From the NCBI RefSeq assembly GCF_002995495.1, contig NZ_PVZV01000012.1, forward strand, positions 62,001-126,000: DNA of 64,000 bases, given 5' to 3'. Origin of the DNA: Actinocorallia populi. GTDB lineage: Bacteria > Actinomycetota > Actinomycetes > Streptosporangiales > Streptosporangiaceae. Below are positions 1-29,161 of this stretch, in pieces. The notes under the pieces were generated by a model. That model did no database searches, was not told where the DNA came from, and was given only the letters and a program-made list of their open reading frames with translations. Position numbers and translations under genes: made by a program. Each line of letters opens with the position of its first letter. Positions within the stretch are counted from its first letter, which is position 1.

Positions 1-213
1 ACCGGCGACATCATGACGATGATCGGGCTGATCGACGACCGGATGATGCGGACCCTGGCGGTCGTCGGGACACCGGCCGAGTGCGCGGCCGAGATCAGGA
101 GCCGGTTCGGCGACGTCGCCGAGCGGATCTGCGCCTACTTCCCCGGGTCGACACACCCGCCGGAGACGATCGCCGCTCTCGCGGCGGAACTCAGGACGAC
201 GGGATCCGGATGA
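1..213 (+). CDS. LLM-class F420/flavin-dependent oxidoreductase, C-terminal end
   Basis: The reading frame is open at the first base of the window and stops at 211-213, so only the last 70 residues are present. They show the usual end of luciferase-like (LLM) oxidoreductases: a helix followed by the turn LAVVGTPAECAAEIRSRF, then a short strand-helix tail ending AALAAELR. In this family the barrel binds F420 or FMN and carries out hydride-transfer redox reactions in the cytoplasm. The active-site half lies outside the window, so the substrate cannot be judged. The tail overlaps the end of the convergent TetR gene by 23 nt. Confidence 0.75.
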   Translation, partial: TGDIMTMIGLIDDRMMRTLAVVGTPAECAAEIRSRFGDVAERICAYFPGSTHPPETIAALAAELRTTGSG

Positions 214-889
214 GCGCGAGCCCGCACTCGGTCTTCGAGCGCGGGCTCCGCACGGCGGTGGACGGTCTGGTCCTGCTCCCCGGCCGTAAGGGGCGGGGCG
301 TCTCGCGGTTCGCGGGCCGCACGCCGTAGAGGAGGATGCGGACCGTCCTGTCGATCCAGTCCGGGGTGAGGCCGTCGGGTCCTCTGGTCAGGATGGCGGC
401 CAGGGCGGAGCCGATGACCATCTCCAGCATCACGAGCGCGTCGACCTCGGCGTCGAGCTCCCCGCTTTCGACGGCCGCGGCGAGGTTGTCGTCGAGCCCG
501 CGCCACCCCTGGGCGGAGAACCGTTCGAGGAGGCGCCGGTGGATGACCGGATCGGTCGCGGCCTCGGCGATCAGGCCGGGTACGGAGATGCGGGCCAGGG
601 GCGTGGTCAGGAGCTCCGCGGTCCGTCGCACCAGCTCGCGCAGGTCTTCGGCGAAGGAGCCCGTCTGGGGCGCGCCGACGGTGACGCTGTCGCGGAAGGT
701 CGCCTCGTGGACGAGGTGGGCCTTGCTGGGCCAGCGCCGGTAGACCGCGGGCCGGGACGTGCCGGCGCGGTCGGCGATGGCGGCCACGGTCACCTCGGCG
801 TAGCCGACCTCTTTCAGCAGCTCGGCGGCTGCGGTCAGGACGGCGTCGTCGATGCGGGCGTTACGAGGTCTTCCAAGGGGGTTGTTCAT
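191..889 (-). CDS. TetR/AcrR family transcriptional regulator
   Basis: A 232-residue repressor with an N-terminal helix-turn-helix (about residues 10-55, including VAAIADRAGTSRPAVYRRW) and a helical C-terminal ligand and dimer domain. The ATG at 889 was chosen because MNNPLGRPRNARIDD is a typical TetR opening; the same frame stays open far upstream only as an antisense shadow of the divergent gene. It is transcribed away from the PEP-synthase-like gene at 917 with a 27-bp gap, so it probably represses itself and that gene. The Arg- and Ser-rich last 35 residues look like poorly conserved tail. The effector is unknown. Confidence 0.85.
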   Translation of the reverse strand: MNNPLGRPRNARIDDAVLTAAAELLKEVGYAEVTVAAIADRAGTSRPAVYRRWPSKAHLVHEATFRDSVTVGAPQTGSFAEDLRELVRRTAELLTTPLARISVPGLIAEAATDPVIHRRLLERFSAQGWRGLDDNLAAAVESGELDAEVDALVMLEMVIGSALAAILTRGPDGLTPDWIDRTVRILLYGVRPANRETPRPLRPGSRTRPSTAVRSPRSKTECGLALIRIPSS

Positions 890-916
890 TTCCGAGCACA
901 GTGTAACGTAGCTGCC

Positions 917-3325
917 GTGAAGCAGCCTCGGAGCGAGCTCGTCGAGTTGTCGGACGTCATCGATGCGAGGTATGGCGGCAAGGCCCTGGGCCTCGCGAAG
1001 CTCGCCGCCGCCGGTTTCCCGGTGCCCGCCGCGTTCGTCATCGCGAACGCCGACGCCATGGAACTCCCCGCCGAACTCGAAGACCGCTACACCCGGATGT
1101 CCGTCTCGCAGAAGGCGGTCGCGGTGCGTTCCTCGGCCGCGGGCGAGGACGGCGCCGTGAGTTCCTTCGCCGGCCAGTACGAGTCGGTCTTGGGGGTGAC
1201 CGAATACGACCACCTCCTCGCCGCGATCCGGCATTGTGCGGCCTCCGCGTCCTCCGACCGCGCGACCGCCTACCGGTCGGACGCCGGGATCTCCGGCGCC
1301 ATGCATCTCGTGGTCCAGGAGATGGTCGACGCGCGCGCCGCAGGCGTCGTGTTCACCGCGGACCCGGCGAGCGGCCGGCGCGACCTCTGCGTGGTCGACG
1401 CGGTTCCCGGCCTCGGCGAGTCGCTGGTCGACGGCTCCGCGAGCTCGGACCACTACGAGGTCGACCCCACCGGACGGATCACGAACCGCCAGACCACGGA
1501 GAGTCCGGCGCTCACCGACGACGAGGTCACGGCCGTCGCGGCCGGAGCCCGGCGCGCGGAGGCGCTGTGGGGAACGCCCCTGGACCTCGAATGGGCGATC
1601 GACCAGGCCGGTGGGATCCGCTGGCTCCAGGCGCGGCCGATCACCACCCTGCCCGGGGACCTGAACGAGATGGACAGCGCTGTCGCGGGCGAGGACCACG
1701 TCTACACCCGGTGCAACATCGGCGAGATGATGCCCGGCGCCTTCTGCCCGCTCACGGCGTCCGTCAGTGGGCAGGCGATCGAGTACGCGATGCAGATGGT
1801 CCAGGTCGCCGGCGGGTTCCAGGACTCCTACCGCGCGGACCGCTGGCTGCAGCTCGGCTACTTCTCCGGCCACCTGTTCCTCAACATGACCGAGGGCACG
1901 GCCCTGAGCGCGGGGATCCTGGGCAACTCGCTCGAGCAGTACTCGTTGTCGATCGCGGGCAGGATCGTCCCCGAGCTGGTGCCCAAGCCGCCGAAGCCGT
2001 TCGCCCGCCGCCTGGTCAACACCGTCCGGCTGACCACGTTCGCGCTCTCGGCGGGCCGGGCGATCCGGCGCCTGGACCGCGACCTGGCCCGCTTCACCGC
2101 GCCGTCCGCGACGGAGCCGTCGGCCCTGCTCGCCGAGCTCGACGCGGCGATCACGCTCTACAACGAGGCCACGCTCACCCACGTCCGGTCCTCTTCGCGC
2201 TCCGCCGTCGCCGCGAACATGCTCGAGCAGACGGTCACGCGCGAAGCGGTCCGCGCGGGCCGCAGCGAGGACGAAGGCCGCTCTCAGGCCGCCGCGCTGA
2301 TGGCCGGTGCCACCAACGTCGAGAGCGCCGTCATGCTGGAGCACCTGGACGACGTCGTAGGACGGCTGGCCGCTGACAAGGCGGAAGCCGAGGCGTTCCT
2401 CGATCCGGACCCCGCCGAGGCCGTGACCCGGCTGGTCGCGGGCGGCGGTCCGACCAGCCGTACGTTCAACGAGTTCCTGCGGCGCCACGGCCACCGGGGC
2501 TACCGGGAGCTGTGCGTGCGCGACCCGTCCTGGGCGGACGATCCCGAAGGCCTCGGCACGATCATGCAGGCCATGCTCCGTGCCCGCCTTCTCGCCGGAG
2601 GCGCCACCCGACCTGCCCACGCGGCGCCGCAGGAGGACGTCTCCCCGGTGGCGCGGGTGATGGCCCGCCTGGCGCGGGCGGGGGCACGCGGACGTGAGGC
2701 GACGAAGTCCCGGATGGTCCTGGTCGCCCACCGGCTCAGCCACGGCTACCGCCTGCTGGGGGAGCGGCTGGCCGCGACGGGACGGCTGCCCGACGCCGAC
2801 CTGGTGTTCTTCTTCGACCGGTCGGAACTGCCGGAGCTCGTGGGCGCCGACGACGTCGGGGACCTGGTCGACCGCGCCCGGGCGCGCCGAGCGGCGCTCG
2901 CGTTCCAGGCCCGGCTCGAGTTCCCCGACGTCTCCGTCGGCAAGCCCGTCCCGATCCGGCCGCGTCCTGCCCAGGAGACCGAGGACGGCGTGATCGTCGG
3001 ACGTCCCGCGTGCGGCGGCGTCGTCGAGGGAACCGTCCGCGTCGCGACCACGATCGCGCAGGCCCGGGAACTGCGACCCGGAGAGGTCCTGGTCGCGCCC
3101 GTGACGGACGTCGGCTGGACGCCGTACTTCACCCTGATCGCCGCGCTCGTCACCGACATCGGCAGCTCGGTCTCCCACGGCGCCGTCGTCGCCCGCGAGT
3201 ACGGCCTGCCCTGCGTGGTCAACACCCAGGGCGCCACCCGCGTGCTCCGCACCGGAGACCGGGTCCGGGTCGACGGCGACCGCGGCACCGTGACCCTGCT
3301 GGACCATTCCCCCACCCCCGCGTAA
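917..3325 (+). CDS. PEP/pyruvate-binding phosphotransferase, PEP synthase / rifampin phosphotransferase-like
   Basis: This 802-residue protein has the three-part layout of PEP synthase and rifampin phosphotransferase. The N-terminal ATP-binding domain (about 1-270) carries GGKALGLAKLAAAGFPVPAA, RSSAAGEDGAVSSFAGQYES and a later WLQARPIT. A variable middle domain spans about 290-690. The C-terminal phospho-histidine domain (about 700-802) carries SVSHGAVVAREYGLPCVV, whose His is the phosphate carrier in the family. The GTG at 917 is chosen because it directly precedes the first conserved segment. The middle domain decides the substrate and I do not recognise it, so rifampin phosphotransferase activity is only a possibility. 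The next gene starts 20 nt downstream, so they are probably co-transcribed. Confidence 0.8.
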   Translation: MKQPRSELVELSDVIDARYGGKALGLAKLAAAGFPVPAAFVIANADAMELPAELEDRYTRMSVSQKAVAVRSSAAGEDGAVSSFAGQYESVLGVTEYDHLLAAIRHCAASASSDRATAYRSDAGISGAMHLVVQEMVDARAAGVVFTADPASGRRDLCVVDAVPGLGESLVDGSASSDHYEVDPTGRITNRQTTESPALTDDEVTAVAAGARRAEALWGTPLDLEWAIDQAGGIRWLQARPITTLPGDLNEMDSAVAGEDHVYTRCNIGEMMPGAFCPLTASVSGQAIEYAMQMVQVAGGFQDSYRADRWLQLGYFSGHLFLNMTEGTALSAGILGNSLEQYSLSIAGRIVPELVPKPPKPFARRLVNTVRLTTFALSAGRAIRRLDRDLARFTAPSATEPSALLAELDAAITLYNEATLTHVRSSSRSAVAANMLEQTVTREAVRAGRSEDEGRSQAAALMAGATNVESAVMLEHLDDVVGRLAADKAEAEAFLDPDPAEAVTRLVAGGGPTSRTFNEFLRRHGHRGYRELCVRDPSWADDPEGLGTIMQAMLRARLLAGGATRPAHAAPQEDVSPVARVMARLARAGARGREATKSRMVLVAHRLSHGYRLLGERLAATGRLPDADLVFFFDRSELPELVGADDVGDLVDRARARRAALAFQARLEFPDVSVGKPVPIRPRPAQETEDGVIVGRPACGGVVEGTVRVATTIAQARELRPGEVLVAPVTDVGWTPYFTLIAALVTDIGSSVSHGAVVAREYGLPCVVNTQGATRVLRTGDRVRVDGDRGTVTLLDHSPTPA

Positions 3326-4611: not shown

Positions 4612-6018
4612 TCAGGAGCGGCCGGGGGTCAGCGCGGCCGCGGCCGCCGCGGCGACGGCCGCTGCGGCAGCGGCCAGGAGGAAGCCGTCGGTGAATCCGG
4701 TCAGGGTGCGGCCGGCGATGGCGGCGGCGGCGACGCTCGAGATGACGGCGGCGCCGAGGGAGGCGCCGAGTTCGTGGAAGGTGCTGACGATCCCGGAGGC
4801 GATGCCGGATTCGTGCGGGGCGACCCGGCCCAGCGCCGTGGCCGAGGCGACCACGAACAGCGCTCCGGCCCCCGCTCCCGCGACCGCCATCCCGGCCACG
4901 ACCGTCACCGGGCCGAGCGACAGCACCGGCACGGCCATCCCGACCGCTGCGACGAGCAGGCCGGCCACGGCCATGCGGCGTGCTCCGGCGGCGCCCAGGG
5001 CCCGGCCGGTGAGGTCGGCTCCGGCCATCGTCGCCAGGGCGACGGGCAGGAACAGCAGGCCGGTGTGCAGGGCGCCGTAGCCGCGGGCGTGCTGGAAGTA
5101 GAAGGTGCCGAGGAAGAACGCCGCGATGCTCAAGGCGGTGGCCATCAGGATGAGGAACGCACCCGCGGCCACGGGGCGGCGGACCAGCATCGCCACGTCC
5201 ATCAGCGGCGAGCGCGCCTTCTTCTGCCAGAGCGCGAACACCGCGTAGCCGGCGGCGGCCGCCAGCAGGAGCAGGCCGGTGGCGGCGGCGAGCCAGCCGT
5301 GGTCTCCGGCGCGGATCAGCGCGAAGATCAGTGTGCCGGAGGAGGCGGTGACCAGCAGCGCGCCGAGCACGTCCAGCCGGGGACGCGGACCGGCCGCGCC
5401 GGTGCGCGGCAGCATCCTCGCCAGCGCCACCGCGATCACCAGCCCGATGGGCACGTTGACGTAGAAGACCCACGGCCAGCCCGGACCCGCGGTGATCAGC
5501 CCGCCCAGCAGGACGCCCAGAGCCGCGCCGCCGCCGCCGAGCGCCGACCACACTCCCAGTGCCCGGTTGCGCTCCTCGCCGTCGAACAGGCCCACCACCA
5601 GCGACAGGGCCGCCGGGGACAGCAGCGCCGCGCCCACGCCCTGGGCGACGCGCCCGCCCAGCAGCATCTCGGCGGAGCCGGCCGCTCCGGTCGCCAGTGA
5701 GCCCGCGACGAAGACCGCCAGTCCCGCGACCACCACCGGCTTGGCCCCGACCAGGTCGGCGATCCTCCCGCCCAGCAGCATCAGGCCGCCGAAGGCCAGG
5801 GTGTAGGCGGTGACCGTCCAGGCCACGGCCTGGCGGCCCAGCCCCAGGTCGACCTCGATGTGCGGCAGCGCGATGGCCACGACGGTGACGTCGAGGATCA
5901 GCATCAGCTGGGCCACCCCGAGGAAGCCCAGGAGACGCCACCGCAGCGGATGCGCCGCGTCCTGCGGCGCGGCGGAGGCCTGATCTCCACGTGCGGGCGG
6001 ATCGGACTGTCGGGTCAT
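4612..6018 (-). CDS. MFS multidrug exporter, DHA2 (EmrB/QacA) family
   Basis: A 468-residue integral membrane protein with about 14 hydrophobic segments. It contains the DHA2 signature LDVTVVAIALPHIEVDLG in the first helix, GRIADLVGAKPVVVAG (motif A) and WPWVFYVNVPIGL in the middle. These transporters export lipophilic drugs using the proton gradient. The ATG at 6018 is preceded by GGGAGG with good spacing. The last residues are an unusual run of Ala-rich helix. It is divergent from the TetR gene at 6112, and two operator copies lie between them, so efflux is probably derepressed when that regulator binds the drug. Confidence 0.9.
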   Translation of the reverse strand: MTRQSDPPARGDQASAAPQDAAHPLRWRLLGFLGVAQLMLILDVTVVAIALPHIEVDLGLGRQAVAWTVTAYTLAFGGLMLLGGRIADLVGAKPVVVAGLAVFVAGSLATGAAGSAEMLLGGRVAQGVGAALLSPAALSLVVGLFDGEERNRALGVWSALGGGGAALGVLLGGLITAGPGWPWVFYVNVPIGLVIAVALARMLPRTGAAGPRPRLDVLGALLVTASSGTLIFALIRAGDHGWLAAATGLLLLAAAAGYAVFALWQKKARSPLMDVAMLVRRPVAAGAFLILMATALSIAAFFLGTFYFQHARGYGALHTGLLFLPVALATMAGADLTGRALGAAGARRMAVAGLLVAAVGMAVPVLSLGPVTVVAGMAVAGAGAGALFVVASATALGRVAPHESGIASGIVSTFHELGASLGAAVISSVAAAAIAGRTLTGFTDGFLLAAAAAAVAAAAAAALTPGRS

Positions 6019-6034
6019 GGCGAACGCCTCCCTT

Positions 6035-6100
6035 AACTCGTACTCATGCATACGACTTTGCGGTTGCGGGGAGAGTAACACGTACTTCCTCATACGAGTT
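6035..6100. promoter_or_regulatory. Two tandem 24-bp TetR operators between MFS and TetR genes
   Basis: Positions 6035-6058 read AACTCGTA-N8-TACGACTT and 6077-6100 read AACACGTA-N8-TACGAGTT. Both are imperfect inverted repeats with the same 8-nt centre length, and they start exactly 42 bp apart (four helical turns). The second copy abuts a TAGGGT -10-like box at 6100-6105, six bases before the TetR ATG. Binding by the TetR protein encoded at 6112 is inference from position and symmetry. Confidence 0.75.
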
Positions 6101-6111
6101 AGGGTGTGGGC

Positions 6112-6714
6112 ATGCCGACCGCCGACCGTCCCCGCCGCCGCGCAGACGCCGAACGCAGCATCGCCCGCATCGTCACCGCGGCACGCGCATGCCTGAGCAG
6201 TGACCCGAACGCCGGTCTCGACGACATCGCCAAGGCCGCCGGGGTGGGCCGGATGACGCTCTACGGCCATTTCGGCAACCGCGCCGCCCTGGTCGAGGCC
6301 GCCCTGGCCGACGCACTGCGCGCCGGGGAGGAGGCGCTGGCGGCCGTCGACCTCACCGGAGACGCGCGACAGGCCCTGATGCGTCTGCTGCACTCCAGCT
6401 GGTCGCTGGTGGCGGAGTCGGCGGTGCTGCTGGCCGCGGCCCGGGAGGCGCTTCCCGCCGAGCGCATCCTCGAACTGCACGCCGCCCCCGCCCAGCGGGT
6501 CGAGGACCTCATCCGCCGCGGCCAGGACCAGGGCGTCTTCCGCACCGACCTGCCGATGGCATGGCTGGTCAGCGTCGTGCACTACGTCCTGAAAGGCGCC
6601 GCGGAGGAGAACCGCGCCCAACGCCTGGGAACCGAGGATGCCGCCGGCATCGTCACCGCGACGGCACTGTCCATCCTCGCCCCTCCGCCTCCGGATCCCC
6701 AACGGCCGCGGTGA
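6112..6714 (+). CDS. TetR/AcrR family transcriptional regulator
   Basis: A 200-residue regulator with an N-terminal HTH (about residues 20-62; IAKAAGVGRMTLYGHFGNRAAL) and a helical ligand domain. I place the start at ATG 6112 rather than the in-frame GTG at 6106. There is no ribosome-binding site, and a TAGGGT box ends six bases before 6112, as in a leaderless transcript. It is divergent from the DHA2 exporter and sits beside two matching operators, so it is most likely the local repressor of that pump and of itself. The inducer is not visible in the sequence. Confidence 0.88.
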   Translation: MPTADRPRRRADAERSIARIVTAARACLSSDPNAGLDDIAKAAGVGRMTLYGHFGNRAALVEAALADALRAGEEALAAVDLTGDARQALMRLLHSSWSLVAESAVLLAAAREALPAERILELHAAPAQRVEDLIRRGQDQGVFRTDLPMAWLVSVVHYVLKGAAEENRAQRLGTEDAAGIVTATALSILAPPPPDPQRPR

Positions 6715-6848: not shown

Positions 6849-7403
6849 TCAGCAGCCGCACGGGCCGTTGCACGGCCCCATGCCCACCACCCTTCCGCCG
6901 GCATCGCGCAGGGTCGGGCAGCATGCCTCGACCAGGGCGCGCAAGGCGGCGCGGCCGCGCTGCACGCGCGACTTCATGCCCGAGACCGACATCCCGCTGT
7001 GCTGGGCGGCGGTGTTCTGGGCGAGGCCGCCCATGTCGACGGTGCGCAGGGCTTCACGCTGGCCTTCGGGAAGGCGTTCCAGCATTCCCGCGGTGCAGCG
7101 GGCCGCCCGCTCCACCTCCGGGCTCGTCCCGCCGGAGGACGGCGCCTGCGGCGACTGGGCCTCGGGAAGGTCGGCGACGGTGGTCTCGCGGCGGCGCGAG
7201 GTACGGCGGTAGTGGTCGGCCAGCACGCTGCGGGCGACGGTGAACAGCCAGGCGGCCCCCGCTTCGGCGGGCGGGGTGCGCACCGCGCGCAGGAACACCT
7301 CCTGCAGCAGGTCCTCGGCGTCCTGCGGGCAGGCGGTGCGGCGGGCCAGGAAGCGGCGCAGGTCGGCGGCGTGAGCGCGCCAGAGCAGTTCGGCAGGAGT
7401 CAT
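6849..7403 (-). CDS. sigZ: ECF-type sigma factor, SigZ-like, with Cys-rich C-terminal tail
   Basis: A 184-residue sigma factor. Region 2 (about 10-75) includes DAEDLLQEVFLRAVR and AWLFTVARSVLADHYRR. Region 4 (about 105-160) includes LPEGQREALRTVDMGGLAQNTAAQHSGMSVSGMKSRVQRGRAAL. SigZ-type factors usually sit in arsenic clusters. The notable part is the end: after region 4 come two Cys (EACCPT) and the last residues GPCNGPCGC, giving five cysteines in the final 25 residues. There is no anti-sigma gene beside it. I infer that the Cys tail may sense As(III) or Sb(III). It is divergent from the Cys-rich peptide gene at 7474. Confidence 0.85.
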   Translation of the reverse strand: MTPAELLWRAHAADLRRFLARRTACPQDAEDLLQEVFLRAVRTPPAEAGAAWLFTVARSVLADHYRRTSRRRETTVADLPEAQSPQAPSSGGTSPEVERAARCTAGMLERLPEGQREALRTVDMGGLAQNTAAQHSGMSVSGMKSRVQRGRAALRALVEACCPTLRDAGGRVVGMGPCNGPCGC

Positions 7404-7473
7404 GGTGCGTCCTTTTCCGTGGTGGTGCGTCTGTGGGAATGCCAGTTCACCCGCGACCTCCAAGGAGGAACTC

Positions 7474-7647
7474 ATGACCACTCCCGTTTCCGAACCCCGG
7501 CCGGCCGCCGCTCAGGCCGCAACCACCTGCTGTGAGCCCGGCGAGCTCGCGACCTGCTGCCAGGACTCGGCCAAGTCCGACTGCTGCGGCGCCGCTTCGG
7601 CCTCCGAGGCCGTGCAGGCCGCTCCGTCGTCCTGCGGCTGCCGGTAG
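7474..7647 (+). CDS. Small Cys-rich protein with three CC pairs
   Basis: A 57-residue protein whose ATG follows AAGGAGG with ideal spacing, so it is very probably translated. It has eight cysteines: CC at 19-20, 28-29 and 37-38, plus C-G-C near the end (SSCGCR). There is no membrane segment and no signal peptide. Vicinal cysteine pairs are classic ligands for As(III) and soft metals, and the flanking genes (SigZ-like factor, ArsO-like flavoprotein, ArsN1) support a role in trapping or delivering arsenical. The gene is followed by its own terminator hairpin. Function is inferred, not known to me. Confidence 0.75.
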   Translation: MTTPVSEPRPAAAQAATTCCEPGELATCCQDSAKSDCCGAASASEAVQAAPSSCGCR

Positions 7648-7654
7648 CAGCATC

Positions 7655-7687
7655 CGGGGGTGTGGGCGCGTGGTGCTCACACCCCCG
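7655..7687 (+). terminator. Hairpin terminator after the Cys-rich peptide
   Basis: CGGGGGTGTG at 7655-7664 pairs perfectly with CACACCCCCG at 7678-7687, with a 13-nt loop. It starts seven bases after the stop codon of the 57-residue protein, and no U-tract follows, as is common in actinomycetes. Confidence 0.7.
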
Positions 7688-7751
7688 CGAGCTGCTGGAC
7701 CGGCGGTGCGCAGCAGACGAGAACCGCTTCTTGTTTAGACACACCTCTAAT

Positions 7752-7770
7752 TTGACATACATCGATTCAA
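7752..7770 (+). promoter_or_regulatory. Promoter/operator region of the arsenic-type operon
   Basis: TTGACATACATCGATTCAA contains a consensus -35 (TTGACA) and an imperfect dyad (TTGA...TCAA around ATCGAT) in an unusually A+T-rich island between the terminator at 7687 and the small gene at 7819. ATCGAT-centred dyads are typical of ArsR-family sites. No ArsR gene is in the window, so the regulator would act from elsewhere. I see no good -10 box at the expected place. Confidence 0.4.
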
Positions 7771-7818
7771 AGGTTCAAGCTGGATCTGATTCGACAAGTT
7801 TCTAATCAGGAGCGTGGG

Positions 7819-7968
7819 ATGAGAACGCTGATCAACCGCCTGTTCCGGCGCCGGGTCGCCGCCGAGTACTGCGAGTCCTGTGCGAACGTGTGCGACAGCG
7901 CCTGCCGCGCCGCCGCCGTGCGCGAACGCGCCCGCAGCGTGCCCCTCACGTTCGGCCCCCGCTTCTGA
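7819..7968 (+). CDS. Small Cys-rich protein (49 residues)
   Basis: This 49-codon frame runs from ATG 7819 to TGA 7966-7968. The start is preceded by AGGAGCG at 7808-7814. The first half is basic (MRTLINRLFRRR). The second carries the cluster EYCESCANVCDSACR, that is C-x2-C-x3-C-x3-C, and it ends LTFGPRF. It resembles a compact metal-binding or zinc-ribbon-like knuckle. It is the first gene of the ArsO/MFS/ArsN1 run, 36 nt before ArsO. A metalloid-binding role is inferred from cysteine content and position only. Confidence 0.65.
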   Translation: MRTLINRLFRRRVAAEYCESCANVCDSACRAAAVRERARSVPLTFGPRF

Positions 7969-8004
7969 GACCCGTTCACCCTTCGCGCCTCCAAGGAGAT
8001 CATG

Positions 8005-9447
8005 ATGAGCGACACCACGCAGACCGGATGCTGCGGCCCCGCCGCCACCCGCCCGCACACCGCGGCCGCCCCGCGGACCACCGTTCCCGCCGGGAGCACC
8101 GAGCCGCCCATCGCGGTGATCGGCGCCGGTCCCGTCGGGCTGGCCGCCGCCGCCCAGCTGGCCGAACGCGGCCTGGACTTCACGGTCCTGGAAGCCGGAG
8201 ACCAGGTAGGGGCTTCGGTCCGGCAGTGGGGGCACGTCGGGTTGTTCAGCCCGTGGCGCTACAACACCGACGCCGCCGCCCGCCGCCTGCTGGAGGCCGC
8301 CGGATGGCAGGCCCCCGACCCCGAGACGCTGCCGACCGGCTCCCAACTCGTCGACGACTACCTCACCCCGCTGGCGGCCCTCCCGCAGATCGCGCCGCGC
8401 CTGCGCACCGGAGCGCGCGTCGAGGCGATCAGCCGTGCGGGCTACGACCGGCTGCGCAGCGTGGGACGCGAAGACGCCCCGTTCGTCCTGCGCGTGCGCA
8501 CCGCCGACGGATCCGTCGAGCAGATACGGGCCCGCGCGGTCATCGACGCCTCCGGTACCTGGCGGACCCCCAACGTCCTGGGCGCGAACGGCCTGCCCGC
8601 TCTCGGTGAGGCCGAGGCCGCCGCCTGGATCGGCCACGCCCTGCCCGACGTGCTGGGCGCCGACCGCCACGTCTTCGCCGGCAGGCACACCCTGGTCGCC
8701 GGAGCCGGGCACTCGGCCGCGACCACCCTCATCGCCCTGGCCGAACTCGCCCAGACCGCACCGGGCACGGCCATCACCTGGGCGATCCGCGGAGCCGACG
8801 CCTCCCGCACCTACGGCGGAGGCGACGCCGACCAGCTCCCTGCCCGCGGCCGCCTCGGCACCCTGCTGCACCACCTGGTCACCACCGGGAAGATCACCCT
8901 GCTCACCGGTTTCTTCACCGACGAACTGCGCCCCCTGGCCGACGGGCCGGAGCACGGCGGCATCCGGGTGATCAGCCGTGCGCCCGACGGCGTCGAGCAG
9001 AGCGTGACGGCGGACCGGATCGTCGCCGCGACCGGCTACCGGCCCGACCACTCCCTGACCGGCGAGCTGCGCCTGAAGCTGGACGCCCTCATGGGCACCA
9101 CCCCCGAGCTCGCCCCGCTCATCGACCCCAACCTCCATTCCTGCGGCACCGTCCCGCCCCACGGCGTCGACGAGCTCACCCACCCCGAGAGCGGCTACCA
9201 CGCCATCGGGGTGAAGTCCTACGGCCGCGCCCCGACCTTCCTGCTGGCCACCGGCTACGAGCAGGCCCGCTCCGTCACCGCCGCCCTGGCCGGCGACTGG
9301 GAGGCCGCCCGCGACATGCGGCTGGAGCTGCCCGAGACCGGCGTGTGCTCCTCGGCCAACGCCGTCGGCCTGGGCACCGGCATCAGCGGCGGGCTGCTGT
9401 CCCTGCCCCTGGTCACCTCCGGCGCCTCCGGCAGCTGCTGTGGCTGA
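8005..9447 (+). CDS. arsO: ArsO-like FAD-dependent NAD(P)-binding oxidoreductase
   Basis: A 480-residue flavoprotein with an N-terminal FAD Rossmann motif (VIGAGPVGLAAAAQLAERGL, about residues 36-55). A second dinucleotide fold lies near 230 (HTLVAGAGHSAATTLIALAE), and the ATG-like strand VAATGYRPD is the family's third motif. Such enzymes occur in actinobacterial ars clusters as ArsO, where they are thought to act on organoarsenicals or sulfide/thiol chemistry; the exact reaction is unsettled. I use ATG 8005 because AAGGAG at 7993-7998 is six bases away; ATG 8002 is possible. Both ends carry vicinal cysteines (TGCCGPA and GSCCG). It overlaps the MFS gene by 8 nt. Confidence 0.8.
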   Translation: MSDTTQTGCCGPAATRPHTAAAPRTTVPAGSTEPPIAVIGAGPVGLAAAAQLAERGLDFTVLEAGDQVGASVRQWGHVGLFSPWRYNTDAAARRLLEAAGWQAPDPETLPTGSQLVDDYLTPLAALPQIAPRLRTGARVEAISRAGYDRLRSVGREDAPFVLRVRTADGSVEQIRARAVIDASGTWRTPNVLGANGLPALGEAEAAAWIGHALPDVLGADRHVFAGRHTLVAGAGHSAATTLIALAELAQTAPGTAITWAIRGADASRTYGGGDADQLPARGRLGTLLHHLVTTGKITLLTGFFTDELRPLADGPEHGGIRVISRAPDGVEQSVTADRIVAATGYRPDHSLTGELRLKLDALMGTTPELAPLIDPNLHSCGTVPPHGVDELTHPESGYHAIGVKSYGRAPTFLLATGYEQARSVTAALAGDWEAARDMRLELPETGVCSSANAVGLGTGISGGLLSLPLVTSGASGSCCG

Positions 9448-10717
9448 GGCCCACGTCCCGGCCGTCACCGGCCGGGACCGGCCTTTCCGGGGCTGGCGGA
9501 TCGTGGGCGCGCTGGCCGTCACCCAGACCGTCGGCTACGGCGTGCTGTTCTACTCCTTCGCCGTCGTCCTGGGCCCCATGAGCCAGGACCTCGGCCTGCC
9601 GGCCACGACGGCGTCCGGATCGCTGACCGTCGCGCTCCTGGTGTGCGCCGCGGTCTCGGTACCCGTCGGGCGGTGGCTGGACCGCCATGGCGGACGCGCG
9701 CTCCTGATCAGCGGATCCGTCGCCGGGACCGTCCTGGTCGCCGCCTGGTCCCAGGTCGACAACGCCCTCCAGCTCTACCTCGTGCTCGCCGGGATCGGCC
9801 TGGTCTCGGCGATGGTGCTGTACGAGGCCGCGTTCGCCGTCGTCATCCCCTGGTTCCACGCCGGACGCACCACCGCGCTGCTGGCCATCACCATCGTGGC
9901 CGGGTTCGCCAGCACCATCTTCATGCCGCTCACCGGCCTGCTCACCCAGCGATACGACTGGCGCACCGCCCTGCTCGCCCTCGCCGTCATCCACGGGGCC
10001 ATCACCATCCCCCTGCACCTGCTCATCCGCCGGCCCTCCGACCTCGGCCAGCACCCCGACGGCGCCGACCGGCCCCCGCCCGCGGCAGACGGCCCCCTGG
10101 CCGACCGGGCGAGCGTCCTGCGCGCGGCTGCGCGCGATCCCTTCTCCTGGACACTCGGCCTGTCCCTGGTCGCCCACTCCCTCACCCTGACCATGCTCGG
10201 CGTCCACCTCGTGGCCTACCTCGTCGACCTCGGCCACACCGGCGCGTTCGCCGCCACCGCCACGGGCCTGCTCGGCGTCCTGTCGGTCACCGGACGGCTC
10301 CTGACCACCGCCGCCGCCAGGCGTTTCACCCTCACCGCCATCACCGCCGCCATCTTCACCCTCCAAGCCGCGGCCACCCTCGCCCTGCCCCTCCTGGGCG
10401 GCACCGCCTGGGGCGCGGTCGGCTGCGTGCTGGGCATCGGACTGGGCTTCGGCATCGTCAACATCGTCAAACCCGCCCTCCTGGCCGCCCAGTACGGCAC
10501 CGCCGCCTTCGCCACCCTGTCCGGCGCCATGATCGTCCCCATGACCCTCGCCAAGGCCCTCGGCCCCCTCGCCGCGGCCGCCCTGCTGGCCGCCACCGGC
10601 TCCTACACCCAGGTCATGATCACCGCGGCCGTCCTCCTCACGGTCAGCGCCGCGGCCGCCCTGGCCGCAGGCCGCCACCACCGCCCGCAACCCTCCTCTA
10701 TCCTTGAGAAGCGATGA
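9440..10717 (+). CDS. MFS permease of the arsenic-type cluster
   Basis: A 425-residue protein with 12 predicted membrane helices. It has a motif-A-like loop PVGRWLDRHGGRALL between helices 2 and 3 and a cytoplasmic loop near residues 195-220. It overlaps the ArsO-like gene upstream by 8 nt and the ArsN1 gene downstream by ATGA, so translation is probably coupled. By context it should move an arsenical or its modified product, but it is not ArsB, Acr3 or a certain ArsJ, and no GAPDH-like partner is present. Substrate unknown. Confidence 0.82.
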   Translation: MAEAHVPAVTGRDRPFRGWRIVGALAVTQTVGYGVLFYSFAVVLGPMSQDLGLPATTASGSLTVALLVCAAVSVPVGRWLDRHGGRALLISGSVAGTVLVAAWSQVDNALQLYLVLAGIGLVSAMVLYEAAFAVVIPWFHAGRTTALLAITIVAGFASTIFMPLTGLLTQRYDWRTALLALAVIHGAITIPLHLLIRRPSDLGQHPDGADRPPPAADGPLADRASVLRAAARDPFSWTLGLSLVAHSLTLTMLGVHLVAYLVDLGHTGAFAATATGLLGVLSVTGRLLTTAAARRFTLTAITAAIFTLQAAATLALPLLGGTAWGAVGCVLGIGLGFGIVNIVKPALLAAQYGTAAFATLSGAMIVPMTLAKALGPLAAAALLAATGSYTQVMITAAVLLTVSAAAALAAGRHHRPQPSSILEKR

Positions 10718-11223
10718 GCAGCTTCGCCTTCACTCTCCGCCCCATGGATCCACGGGACGCCGACCAGGTCCTGGCCGTCTACCAGGCCGGACTGGACACC
10801 GGGCAGGCCAGTTTCGAAACCGAGGCCCCCGCCTGGGAGGACTTCGACGCCGGTCGGCTTCCCGCCCACCGCCACGTCGCCGCCGCACCCGACGGGAAGG
10901 TCCTCGGCTGGATCGCCGTCAGCGCCGTCTCCACCCGGCCGGTCTACGCCGGCGTCGTCGAGCACTCCCTCTACATCCACCCCGACGCCCGCGGCCACGG
11001 CATCGGCACCGCCCTGCTGCAGGCCCTCATCGCCTCCACCGAGGCCGCCGGGATCTGGACCATCCAATCCGGCGTCTTCCCCGACAACACCGCCAGCCTC
11101 GCCCTCCACCACAAGGCCGGCTTCCGCACCGTCGGCACCCGCGAACGCATCGCCAGGCACCACGGCCGCTGGCGCGACGTCATCCTCCTGGAACGCCGCA
11201 GCGACCACCCGCACACAGTCTGA
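10714..11223 (+). CDS. arsN1: ArsN1-like GNAT acetyltransferase (arsinothricin/phosphinothricin type)
   Basis: A 169-residue GNAT enzyme of the Pat/Bar/ArsN branch. Diagnostic segments are VYAGVVEHSLYIHPDARGHG (acetyl-CoA pyrophosphate loop RGHGIG), IWTIQSGVFPDNTASLALHH and GFRTVGTRERIARHHGRWRD. This family N-acetylates the amino group of phosphinothricin or the trivalent/pentavalent arsenical analogue arsinothricin, blocking glutamine synthetase inhibition. The ATGA overlap with the MFS gene places it last in the operon. The neighbouring metalloid genes favour arsinothricin over phosphinothricin, but sequence alone does not separate the two. Confidence 0.85.
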   Translation: MSSFAFTLRPMDPRDADQVLAVYQAGLDTGQASFETEAPAWEDFDAGRLPAHRHVAAAPDGKVLGWIAVSAVSTRPVYAGVVEHSLYIHPDARGHGIGTALLQALIASTEAAGIWTIQSGVFPDNTASLALHHKAGFRTVGTRERIARHHGRWRDVILLERRSDHPHTV

Positions 11224-28333: not shown

Positions 28334-29125
28334 TCACGCGTCGTCCGGCAGGGGTTCGCCGGTCTCCAGCAGCGTCTTGAGGCTCGCTATCACGTTCGGC
28401 CAGCCGTGGCTGACCATTTCGGCCAGGCTCGATCCGGGCTCGAAGCCGTCGTGTACGACGGTGAGTTTCACGACCTGCGCGGTCTCCTCGATCGTGAAGG
28501 TGACCTTCGAGCGGGCTTCGCCGGACAGCCGGGTGAGCAGTTCCTCGTCCCAGCCGAAGCGCTTGGCGAGCTCCGGGGTGATGGCGTGCCAGGTGTAGGA
28601 GAGCCGGCTGTAGGGCTCGGCCTCCAGCACGACCTGCTGCGGGTCGTCGATCAGCACGCCGTGGTTGTCCCAGGTCATCGGGGAGCCGGGGGACCAGTCC
28701 GTGGTGAACTCCGTGGCCCAGTAGCGGCGGGTGAAGGCGGGGTCGGTCAGTGCCTGCCAGAGCTTCTGGGGGGTGGTGCGGATGTAGGTGGTGTAGACGA
28801 AGGTCGGTGCGTCCATGGGGGGCTCCTCCAGGGCGAGTTTCAGGTCTGCCAGGGCTTGGACCCTGGCCCGGTCGTAGCGGCTGATCCAGCGGTGGGCGAT
28901 CTCGTGCACGGGTGCGGCGTTGAGGTAGTGCAGCTTCTCCCGGCCCCGCCGCACGGTGGCGACGAGCCCGGCCTCCTCCAGCACCGCGAGGTGCTTGCTG
29001 ACGGACTGCCTGGCCATGTCGAGTCCGGCGCACAGCTCGCGCAGCGTCTGCCCGTTGCGGGCGTTGAGCGAGTCGAGCAGCGCGCGCCGGCTCGGATCGG
29101 CCAGCGCCTTGAACACCTCGTCCAT
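28334..29125 (-). CDS. ArsR-type HTH fused to SRPBCC (AHSA1) domain
   Basis: A 263-residue fusion. Residues 1-85 are an ArsR-like winged helix (MDEVFKALADPSRRALLDSL, LDMARQSVSKHLAVLEEAGL). Residues about 110-255 form an Aha1/CalC-like SRPBCC pocket (YIRTTPQKLWQALTDPAFTR, then SRLSYTWHAI and GWPNVIASLKTLLETG). No metal-binding Cys motif is seen, so ligand sensing is probably through the hydrophobic SRPBCC pocket. ATG 29125 has AAGG five bases upstream; GTG 29137 is possible. A 41-bp perfect palindrome overlapping the promoter indicates autoregulation. Confidence 0.85.
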   Translation of the reverse strand: MDEVFKALADPSRRALLDSLNARNGQTLRELCAGLDMARQSVSKHLAVLEEAGLVATVRRGREKLHYLNAAPVHEIAHRWISRYDRARVQALADLKLALEEPPMDAPTFVYTTYIRTTPQKLWQALTDPAFTRRYWATEFTTDWSPGSPMTWDNHGVLIDDPQQVVLEAEPYSRLSYTWHAITPELAKRFGWDEELLTRLSGEARSKVTFTIEETAQVVKLTVVHDGFEPGSSLAEMVSHGWPNVIASLKTLLETGEPLPDDA

Positions 29126-29161
29126 GTCCGCCTTCACATCCGGGCTGCCGTCTGTAGATGC

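Follow-up and report, generated by a model that had tools for sequence, protein, structure and literature searches.

Bacterial responses to arsenic are usually described as derepression of ArsR-controlled genes. Metals may also be perceived by a sigma factor itself, and metal-sensing sigma factors with Cys extensions are already known (PMC8999054). The described examples are CorE and CorE2 of Myxococcus xanthus, extracytoplasmic function (ECF) sigma factors of group ECF238, formerly ECF44. According to the available part of the source, both sense metal directly and have no anti-sigma factor, and CorE carries Cys residues in its linker and at its C-terminus, both of which are essential (PMC8999054). 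The locus considered here lies in 64,000 nucleotides of Actinocorallia populi DNA (assembly GCF_002995495.1, contig NZ_PVZV01000012.1, positions 62,001 to 126,000), a stretch referred to in its entirety as the window. In it a gene for a SigZ-like ECF sigma factor (6849-7403, minus strand; 184 residues, ending in GPCNGPCGC) stands back to back with a gene for a 57-residue Cys-rich protein, p57 (7474-7647, plus strand). Conserved sigma Cys residues, adjacency of the two genes, a common upstream motif and fusions of p57 to other proteins are all observed, and they suggest that the sigma factor turns on arsenic defences. The reading preferred here, to which we assign a probability of roughly one in two, is that sigma and p57 form a two-gene regulatory cassette in which the sigma factor would act as a CorE-like one-component sensor of a trivalent arsenical.

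A sequence-only reading of this stretch had described an arsenic-type cluster whose proteins share Cys tails, and had proposed the sigma factor as the sensor and the small proteins as carriers. The Cys-rich genes that it noted, the sigma gene with its GPCNGPCGC end among them, were all found in place. The first proposal fits the positions of the sigma Cys residues, which resemble those of CorE, and the second fits the fusion of the p57 module to ArsM and to a flavoprotein. The sigma gene, which had been counted as part of the operon, is instead divergent from the p57, p49, flavoprotein, transporter and acetyltransferase genes and lies outside their operon.

Conserved Cysteines in SigZ-like Sigma Factors

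SigZ is the best-matching family for the window sigma factor, with 122.8 bits against TIGR02959 (cut-off 168.65) and 122.2 against PRK09637 (cut-off 212), both under the cut-off; the next family reaches 66.7 bits. One relative, L093, lies above the TIGR02959 cut-off at 202.7 bits (relatives are cited by handles beginning with L or G). When the phylum was searched with TIGR02959, 126 of 198 genomes matched at 1e-20; among the matches listed three exceeded 95 bits, scoring 170, 148 and 122, after which scores fell to 94 or less. Judged by these scores the protein is SigZ-like and separated from ordinary ECF sigma factors, although it is not filed as SigZ. A fold search of the PDB with a model of the protein returned ordinary ECF sigma factors, SigL and SigH of Mycobacterium tuberculosis being the best. 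Groups ECF287 and ECF288 are said, in the available part of the source, to carry Cys-rich extensions (PMC8999054), and the window sigma factor may already be placed in one of them. No ligand, partner or promoter of SigZ is given in the literature found. Nor did the literature searched yield a link between SigZ and arsenic, the promoter motif described below or the p57 module, an absence that is unproven as subscription papers lay mostly outside the scope.

The sigma Cys residues are a signature of the family, as judged from an alignment of 63 SigZ-like sigma factors (a subset of 71 from which near-duplicates were removed). Its invariant positions are W52, D63, K144, R146 and C162, the last thus present in 63 of 63. 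The linker residue C103 is retained in 60 of the 63 and C161 in 57; the column of C182, which with C184 makes up the tail Cys of the window protein, is Cys in 53, and 58 sequences have at least two Cys C-terminal to C162. Among other ECF sigma factors from the fetched loci (n = 29), a linker Cys occurs in one and a CC pair in none. The Cys comparison counts cover 70 of the 71 SigZ-like and 29 of the 30 control sigma factors, one sequence having been dropped from each set because it had no anchor. In a structure model C103 sits in the helix opening region 4, at the junction with the sigma2-sigma4 linker, while C161 ends the last helix of region 4 and C162 follows immediately. The tails of relatives mostly read CC...GPCPCG or similar. 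Absence of such tails from homologous clusters had been named beforehand as evidence against the proposed sensor; they are conserved. The stress laid on the terminal residues did not hold, the best-conserved Cys being C103 and C161/C162, and the terminal tail residues were dropped as candidates for the key Cys.

The p57 Module

The p57 protein has the form CC-x7-CC-x4-K-x2-CCG...CGCR, with the three CC pairs described earlier; the CGC end ascribed to it is followed by one further residue. It has no family match in Pfam or NCBIfam. The window contains a single copy of the exact DNA pattern derived from p57 and related sequences, and 100 shuffles contain none; relatives also keep the arrangement of the Cys residues. 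A scan of species genomes for CC-x7-CC-x4-K-x2-CCG gave at least 118 stretches, so that module counts from this pattern are a sample only. Among the matches listed, to which all module counts in this section refer, 96 of 118 passed a strict module test (a few of the 96 are of low complexity) and 22 failed, two of which, L104 and L178, look real. Of the 96, 45 stand alone, 19 terminate a DUF2703 protein, 27 are carried by ArsM and 5 by a flavoprotein. A SigZ-like sigma gene lies within 700 bases of 35 of the 45 stand-alone and 18 of the 19 DUF2703 modules, and of none on ArsM (0/27) or flavoprotein (0/5); a different filter gave 35/41, 18/19 and, for ArsM and flavoprotein together, 0/26. Among modules without a nearby sigma gene, 32 of 43 are on ArsM or a flavoprotein. 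With sigma genes near stand-alone and DUF2703 modules and never near the enzyme-fused ones, it is the module alone or on DUF2703 that goes with the sigma factor. Ten stand-alone modules lack a sigma gene within 700 bases: two are at fragment ends (L078, L169), four are of low complexity (L087, L102, L151, L164), two resemble ArsM starts by eye (L112, L128), one has its sigma gene 2.6 kb away (L126), and L131 is a true exception. Those sigma-linked modules that carry titles come from Actinobacteria, Chloroflexi, Cyanobacteria, Acidobacteria, Nitrospirae and Proteobacteria.

On this distribution p57 is a portable module. Its CC spacing and its fusions point to a putative arsenic-binding metallochaperone or metallothionein, and in the window p57 would be a thiol or metalloid carrier and the partner of the sigma factor. 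The module is found at either the N- or the C-terminus of ArsM (L089, L091, L095, L097, L103, L108, L111, L122 and others, mostly Solirubrobacterales) and ends a number of flavoproteins with an ArsK-like gene nearby (L082, L098, L110, L116 and L171, some of Chloroflexi and one of a cyanobacterium). Stand-alone copies are small; at least one, that of L070, has no listed gene, in a gene table that is incomplete.

Distribution and Gene Neighbourhoods

Within the GTDB family of A. populi the sigma factor matches at 1e-20 in 14 of 297 genomes, its own included. The 13 other genomes hold 14 sigma loci, 12 of them with p57 beside sigma; of the remaining two, one is cut by a contig end and the other has a different CC-rich protein, of 63 residues, about 2 kb away. 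The flavoprotein gene was present within the fetched stretch (12 kb, in one case 6.3 kb) at 13 of the 14. Sigma and p57 are in tandem in most relatives, convergent in Rhodococcus and divergent in the window, so their adjacency survives rearrangement.

A profile of 52 sigma factors retrieved eight sigma factors from 7 of 392 genomes of the phylum. This check is only partly independent: L273, L276, L277 and L280 are new, and the profile already contained the window sigma factor, G065, G118 and L163, to the last of which L274 probably corresponds. All eight have a thiol-rich or arsenic-type neighbour: a DUF2703-p57 protein at three, p57 at one (the window), a 42-residue frame at one, an ArsP-type permease at two (by Pfam in L276, by similarity in L277) and a flavoprotein-ArsK pair at one (G118). 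The 42-residue frame, in G065, ends in SCCDPDSPCCGEEAYCSGDCC and is a short Cys-rich neighbour of sigma. In L273 and L280 the DUF2703-p57 protein ends with CCD, which puts it beyond the reach of the module pattern.

Relatives of the sigma factor occur on plasmids, with matches at 1e-8 in 1,429 plasmid records, 1,048 of them from Klebsiella; the enterobacterial hosts are Klebsiella, Salmonella, Citrobacter, Enterobacter and E. coli. Fifteen plasmid regions were chosen from the matches to be diverse rather than by random draw. They show that SigZ-like sigma genes also stand in plasmid ars clusters of other phyla: ten regions have ars genes in view (L071-L077, L229, L231, L232), and none are in view in L070, L226, L227, L228 or L230. 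In all six enterobacterial regions read the sigma relative has ars genes as neighbours, and in three it is flanked by arsH and an arsD-type gene. A search of viral contigs gave four pattern matches and no relatives.

A Promoter-like Motif

Alignment of the p57 upstream regions of 12 relatives produced the motif TGC(A/G)TCC, 15 bases, CGTCT. The sole copy in the window, TGCGTCC-N15-CGTCT at 7406-7432 (plus strand), lies 41 nt 5' of the p57 start codon and is the predicted target of the sigma factor. Among 38 sigma-linked loci that took no part in its definition, 28 carry the motif exactly and 36 of 38 carry it when one mismatch is allowed, where dinucleotide shuffles predict 0.08; the count omits four of the 42 such loci, at fragment ends, one of which has the motif. 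None of 27 control loci, with modules fused to ArsM or flavoprotein, has it. Seven of the eight sigma factors from the phylum search have the motif, at one mismatch or better, on the fetched stretch, and the eighth (L277) is cut inside the upstream gene.

In relatives the motif also precedes genes other than p57. It stands 5' of the flavoprotein-ArsK pair in G118, with a one-mismatch copy 5' of sigma, and 5' of ArsP_1 permease genes in L276 (exact) and in Ideonella and K. quasipneumoniae (one mismatch each). Enterobacter and Citrobacter have one-mismatch copies 5' of permease-annotated genes, and exact copies stand 5' of a Sulfuricella operon of TolC/RND type and of a Citrobacter FmdE gene. 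At three loci the motif precedes ArsI, which lies above the ArsI cut-off in L057 and is assigned by similarity in L062 and L086; the L057 and L086 loci are probably from the same genome. A search of the host genome with a loose spacer gave 11 matches against 6 for a reversed control, and therefore only the copy at the locus is trusted. A strict family-wide search gave ten matches in 9 of 297 genomes (reversed control, 4), and eight of these nine are among the 14 sigma genomes; the search is circular in part, the motif having been derived from loci within this family. Its outliers are a match 13 kb from sigma in G616 and one in a genome without sigma, G397.

Several loci in Rhodococcus, Nocardia and one relative have a second copy of the motif facing away from sigma (L071 at 5816, minus strand; L083 at 4847; L085 at 5664; L096 at 7597; L182 at 5897). 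After this copy comes a conserved Cys-free peptide of some 30 residues, MLTTHLLSGLT(D/S)EEVDLIVAEELHLLDAAA or close to it; in L168 the motif is present and the peptide absent. L233 has a 42-residue frame ending in SCCDPDSPCCGEEAYCSGDCC (5171-5299, plus strand) between a one-mismatch motif and a SigZ above the family cut-off, and no ars genes were found on its 11.5-kb stretch. In L276 an ArsM-like start (by eye; 2-232, minus strand) is divergent from the motif, an ArsP_1 permease gene and a SigZ-like sigma gene (376-2040, plus strand, for this side).

A Proposed Mechanism and Its Alternatives

In the preferred model a trivalent arsenical, As(III) or a methyl- or organo-arsenite, would bind the sigma thiols at linker residue C103 and at C161-C162, with the tail Cys assisting, and binding would activate the sigma factor as copper or cadmium does CorE and CorE2. 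Active sigma would then read TGC(A/G)TCC-N15-CGTCT, predicted to be its promoter, and switch on p57. In relatives sigma would control p57 together with its own gene, or else genes for an ArsP-type permease or for ArsI, or the operon of flavoprotein and ArsK. The CC pairs of p57 would bind and buffer the arsenical and strip it from sigma, giving negative feedback, and p57 may deliver the arsenical to the pump and the CC-tailed flavoprotein. Trivalent organoarsenicals leave the cell through ArsP and ArsK (PMC12607644), and methylarsenite is a substrate of ArsI according to the available part of a further source (PMC6514093), which makes a trivalent organoarsenical no less likely a ligand than arsenite. 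A role for the sigma factor as a plain replacement for ArsR was dropped, as relatives have both and the host genome has an arsR-acr3 pair elsewhere. If the model is true, a thiol-bearing sigma factor with a fixed promoter and a travelling thiol-rich partner would be a second way of sensing arsenic; SigZ-like sigma factors, whose signal is unnamed in the literature found, would gain a ligand, a regulon and a promoter; and the p57 module would serve as a compact marker with which to locate the parts of enzymes that bind arsenicals.

A number of observations weigh against the model. Among the matches listed, no recognised core ars gene is present in 33 of 42 out-of-sample sigma-p57 fragments (at most 8 kb, from outside the family), the other nine having one as against 0 of 16 spurious fragments. 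The range of ligands may extend beyond arsenic. No ars gene lies within 4 kb of the SigZ-like sigma genes of Priestia and Vibrio plasmids or of the more distant sigma gene of Manganitrophus, and these regions also lack the motif. At one mismatch the motif was not found in the Priestia, Vibrio, Manganitrophus, Hymenobacter, Arenibacter, K. pneumoniae, E. coli or Leclercia regions; these include the arsH-sigma-arsD plasmids of the last three and the plasmids of Hymenobacter and Arenibacter. The tail Cys are missing from the Priestia and G118 sigma factors, and those of L276 and L277 have neither linker nor tail Cys.

One alternative would make p57, or DUF2703-p57, the sensor: as a soluble anti-sigma factor it would hold sigma through thiols or zinc and release it when an arsenical takes the CC pairs, the sigma Cys being contacts. 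The tight adjacency of the two genes and their common motif are as in sigma/anti-sigma pairs. However, the occurrence of the module on ArsM and flavoproteins with no sigma gene near (0 of 32 among the matches listed) is more in keeping with a binding module, conservation extends to the Cys of sigma itself, and no p57-like frame was seen in plasmid regions L072-L077 or beside sigma in L276, L277 and G118. We regard an anti-sigma role as unlikely. We hold it equally unlikely that the system answers general thiol stress or soft metals (Cd, Hg, Zn, Cu, selenium or tellurium, disulfide stress), with p57 a metallothionein-like target and arsenic one of several regulons. The fragments without a recognised ars gene favour such a wider range, as do the chromate and copper genes near the Manganitrophus sigma gene and a TerC-like gene (by eye) in L152, whereas the fusion of the module to ArsM and an ArsO-type flavoprotein, the motif 5' of ArsI, ArsP_1 and flavoprotein-ArsK genes, and ars genes in 11 of 11 family fragments speak for arsenic. 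That the sigma Cys are structural or vestigial, with sigma controlled only transcriptionally (e.g., by ArsR) and the tails a composition effect of ars clusters, is very improbable: ArsR genes do lie close to sigma in several relatives and Cys tails are common among ars proteins, but the Cys are near-invariant across distant SigZ-like sigma factors, also away from ars clusters, and L063 keeps the motif though the rest of the common upstream region is missing.

A broader form of the one-component sensor model can be put forward more tentatively, as somewhat less probable than the cassette itself. SigZ-like ECF sigma factors would be sensors of trivalent, perhaps methylated, arsenicals across phyla, with their own promoter and their own p57-type thiol buffer, alone or on DUF2703, in a two-gene cassette that could be placed in any genome, and the same module would serve as an arsenical-docking tail of ArsM and ArsO-type flavoproteins.

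Remaining Genes of the Cluster

Downstream of p57 a strong GC-rich hairpin (7648-7697, plus strand), terminator-like though without a T run, separates it from the next operon. This begins with p49 (7819-7968, plus strand), an open reading frame for the 49-residue, four-Cys protein described in the sequence-only reading. Its homologues have 45-48 residues and two Cys (VCDxxCxA), and at 6 of the 14 loci in relatives they are encoded immediately 5' of the flavoprotein. Matches of p49 are weak and under cut-off: SCIFF (18.1 against 27 in Pfam, 19.8 against 50 in NCBIfam), DUF2703 (17.1 against 23.6) and one further model. There follow an ArsO-like FAD/NAD(P)H oxidoreductase, the flavoprotein (8002-9447, plus strand), with CC near both ends as described (TGCCGPA at the start, GSCCG at the end); an ArsK-like major facilitator superfamily (MFS) transporter (9440-10717, plus strand); and, closing the operon as proposed, an ArsN1-like GNAT acetyltransferase (10714-11223, plus strand). 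The best NCBIfam families of sigma, flavoprotein, transporter and acetyltransferase are SigZ, ArsO, ArsK and ArsN1 family A, in every case under the curated cut-off: 49.2 bits against 425 for the ArsO flavin monooxygenase model NF040505, 150.2 against 400 for ArsK (NF033733) and 126.2 against 170 for ArsN1 family A (NF040503). The transporter had been omitted from the earlier gene list; its best family, the arsenite exporter ArsK, makes it a candidate for efflux within the window. Members of the flavoprotein family are common: at 1e-60 they occur in 22 of 396 phylum genomes and at 1e-20 in 126 plasmid records.

The p49/flavoprotein operon has no sigma motif. Its upstream region (7747-7773, plus strand), with TTGACA at 7752-7757 and a box, is similar to the p45 upstream region in relatives, and we take the box to resemble ArsR operators. 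The flavoprotein/ArsK/ArsN1 operon has a predicted promoter of its own and is probably controlled by ArsR, the weakest point of the account because it rests on resemblance. With no sigma motif and a different upstream sequence common to relatives, p49 is probably not in the sigma regulon, contrary to its earlier placement in one system with the sigma factor. A scan of 7300-8100 found no sigma-70-type promoters or T-run terminators, and a search of the whole window with Rfam gave no match. The earlier statement that the window has no ArsB/Acr3, ArsC or ArsM agrees with tblastn searches using references from annotated ars clusters, which found none; for ArsR it needs amendment, as an ArsR-fold (HTH_5) protein of about 267 residues is encoded far from the cluster (28334-29137, minus strand). 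The host genome has a separate arsR-acr3-arsC group on a different contig. Just beyond the sigma gene lie genes for a TetR-type regulator and a DHA2-like MFS exporter, the latter under the model cut-off (4612-6714).

Comparison with Known Systems

The flavoprotein/pump/acetyltransferase operon is of an already known kind. ArsR-flavoprotein-ArsK operons on Rhizobium and Rhodococcus plasmids have the same flavoprotein and MFS pair as the window, and a Cellulosimicrobium plasmid combines ArsR, flavoprotein and GNAT. On the Rhizobium and Rhodococcus plasmids it is ArsR that stands beside the pair, whereas in the window and in G118 it is sigma. In Rhodococcus aetherivorans BCP1 a DUF2703-arsO operon is induced by arsenate, as far as the available part of the source goes (PMC6514093). 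There DUF2703 adjoins ArsO, and the word sigma does not occur in the main text as available (PMC6514093), whereas here DUF2703 with a p57 tail adjoins SigZ-like sigma factors.

The ArsD metallochaperone is, like p57, a small protein with CC pairs encoded in ars operons, and an ArsD-type gene lies directly 3' of sigma on the K. pneumoniae, E. coli and Leclercia plasmids. However, p57 is half the size of ArsD, has a different Cys spacing and is without a Pfam or NCBIfam match. The likeness of the sigma factor is to CorE and CorE2, which are likewise ECF sigma factors with linker and C-terminal Cys. CorE has a CXC linker and a C-terminal Cys-rich domain, whereas the window sigma factor has a single Cys, C103, in the linker and only a short tail of the form CC...C-x-C; it falls outside the definition of ECF238/ECF44 by those two features in the available part of the source (PMC8999054). 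Unlike CorE, it has arsenic-type neighbours and p57 as a partner, and it matches the SigZ models best.

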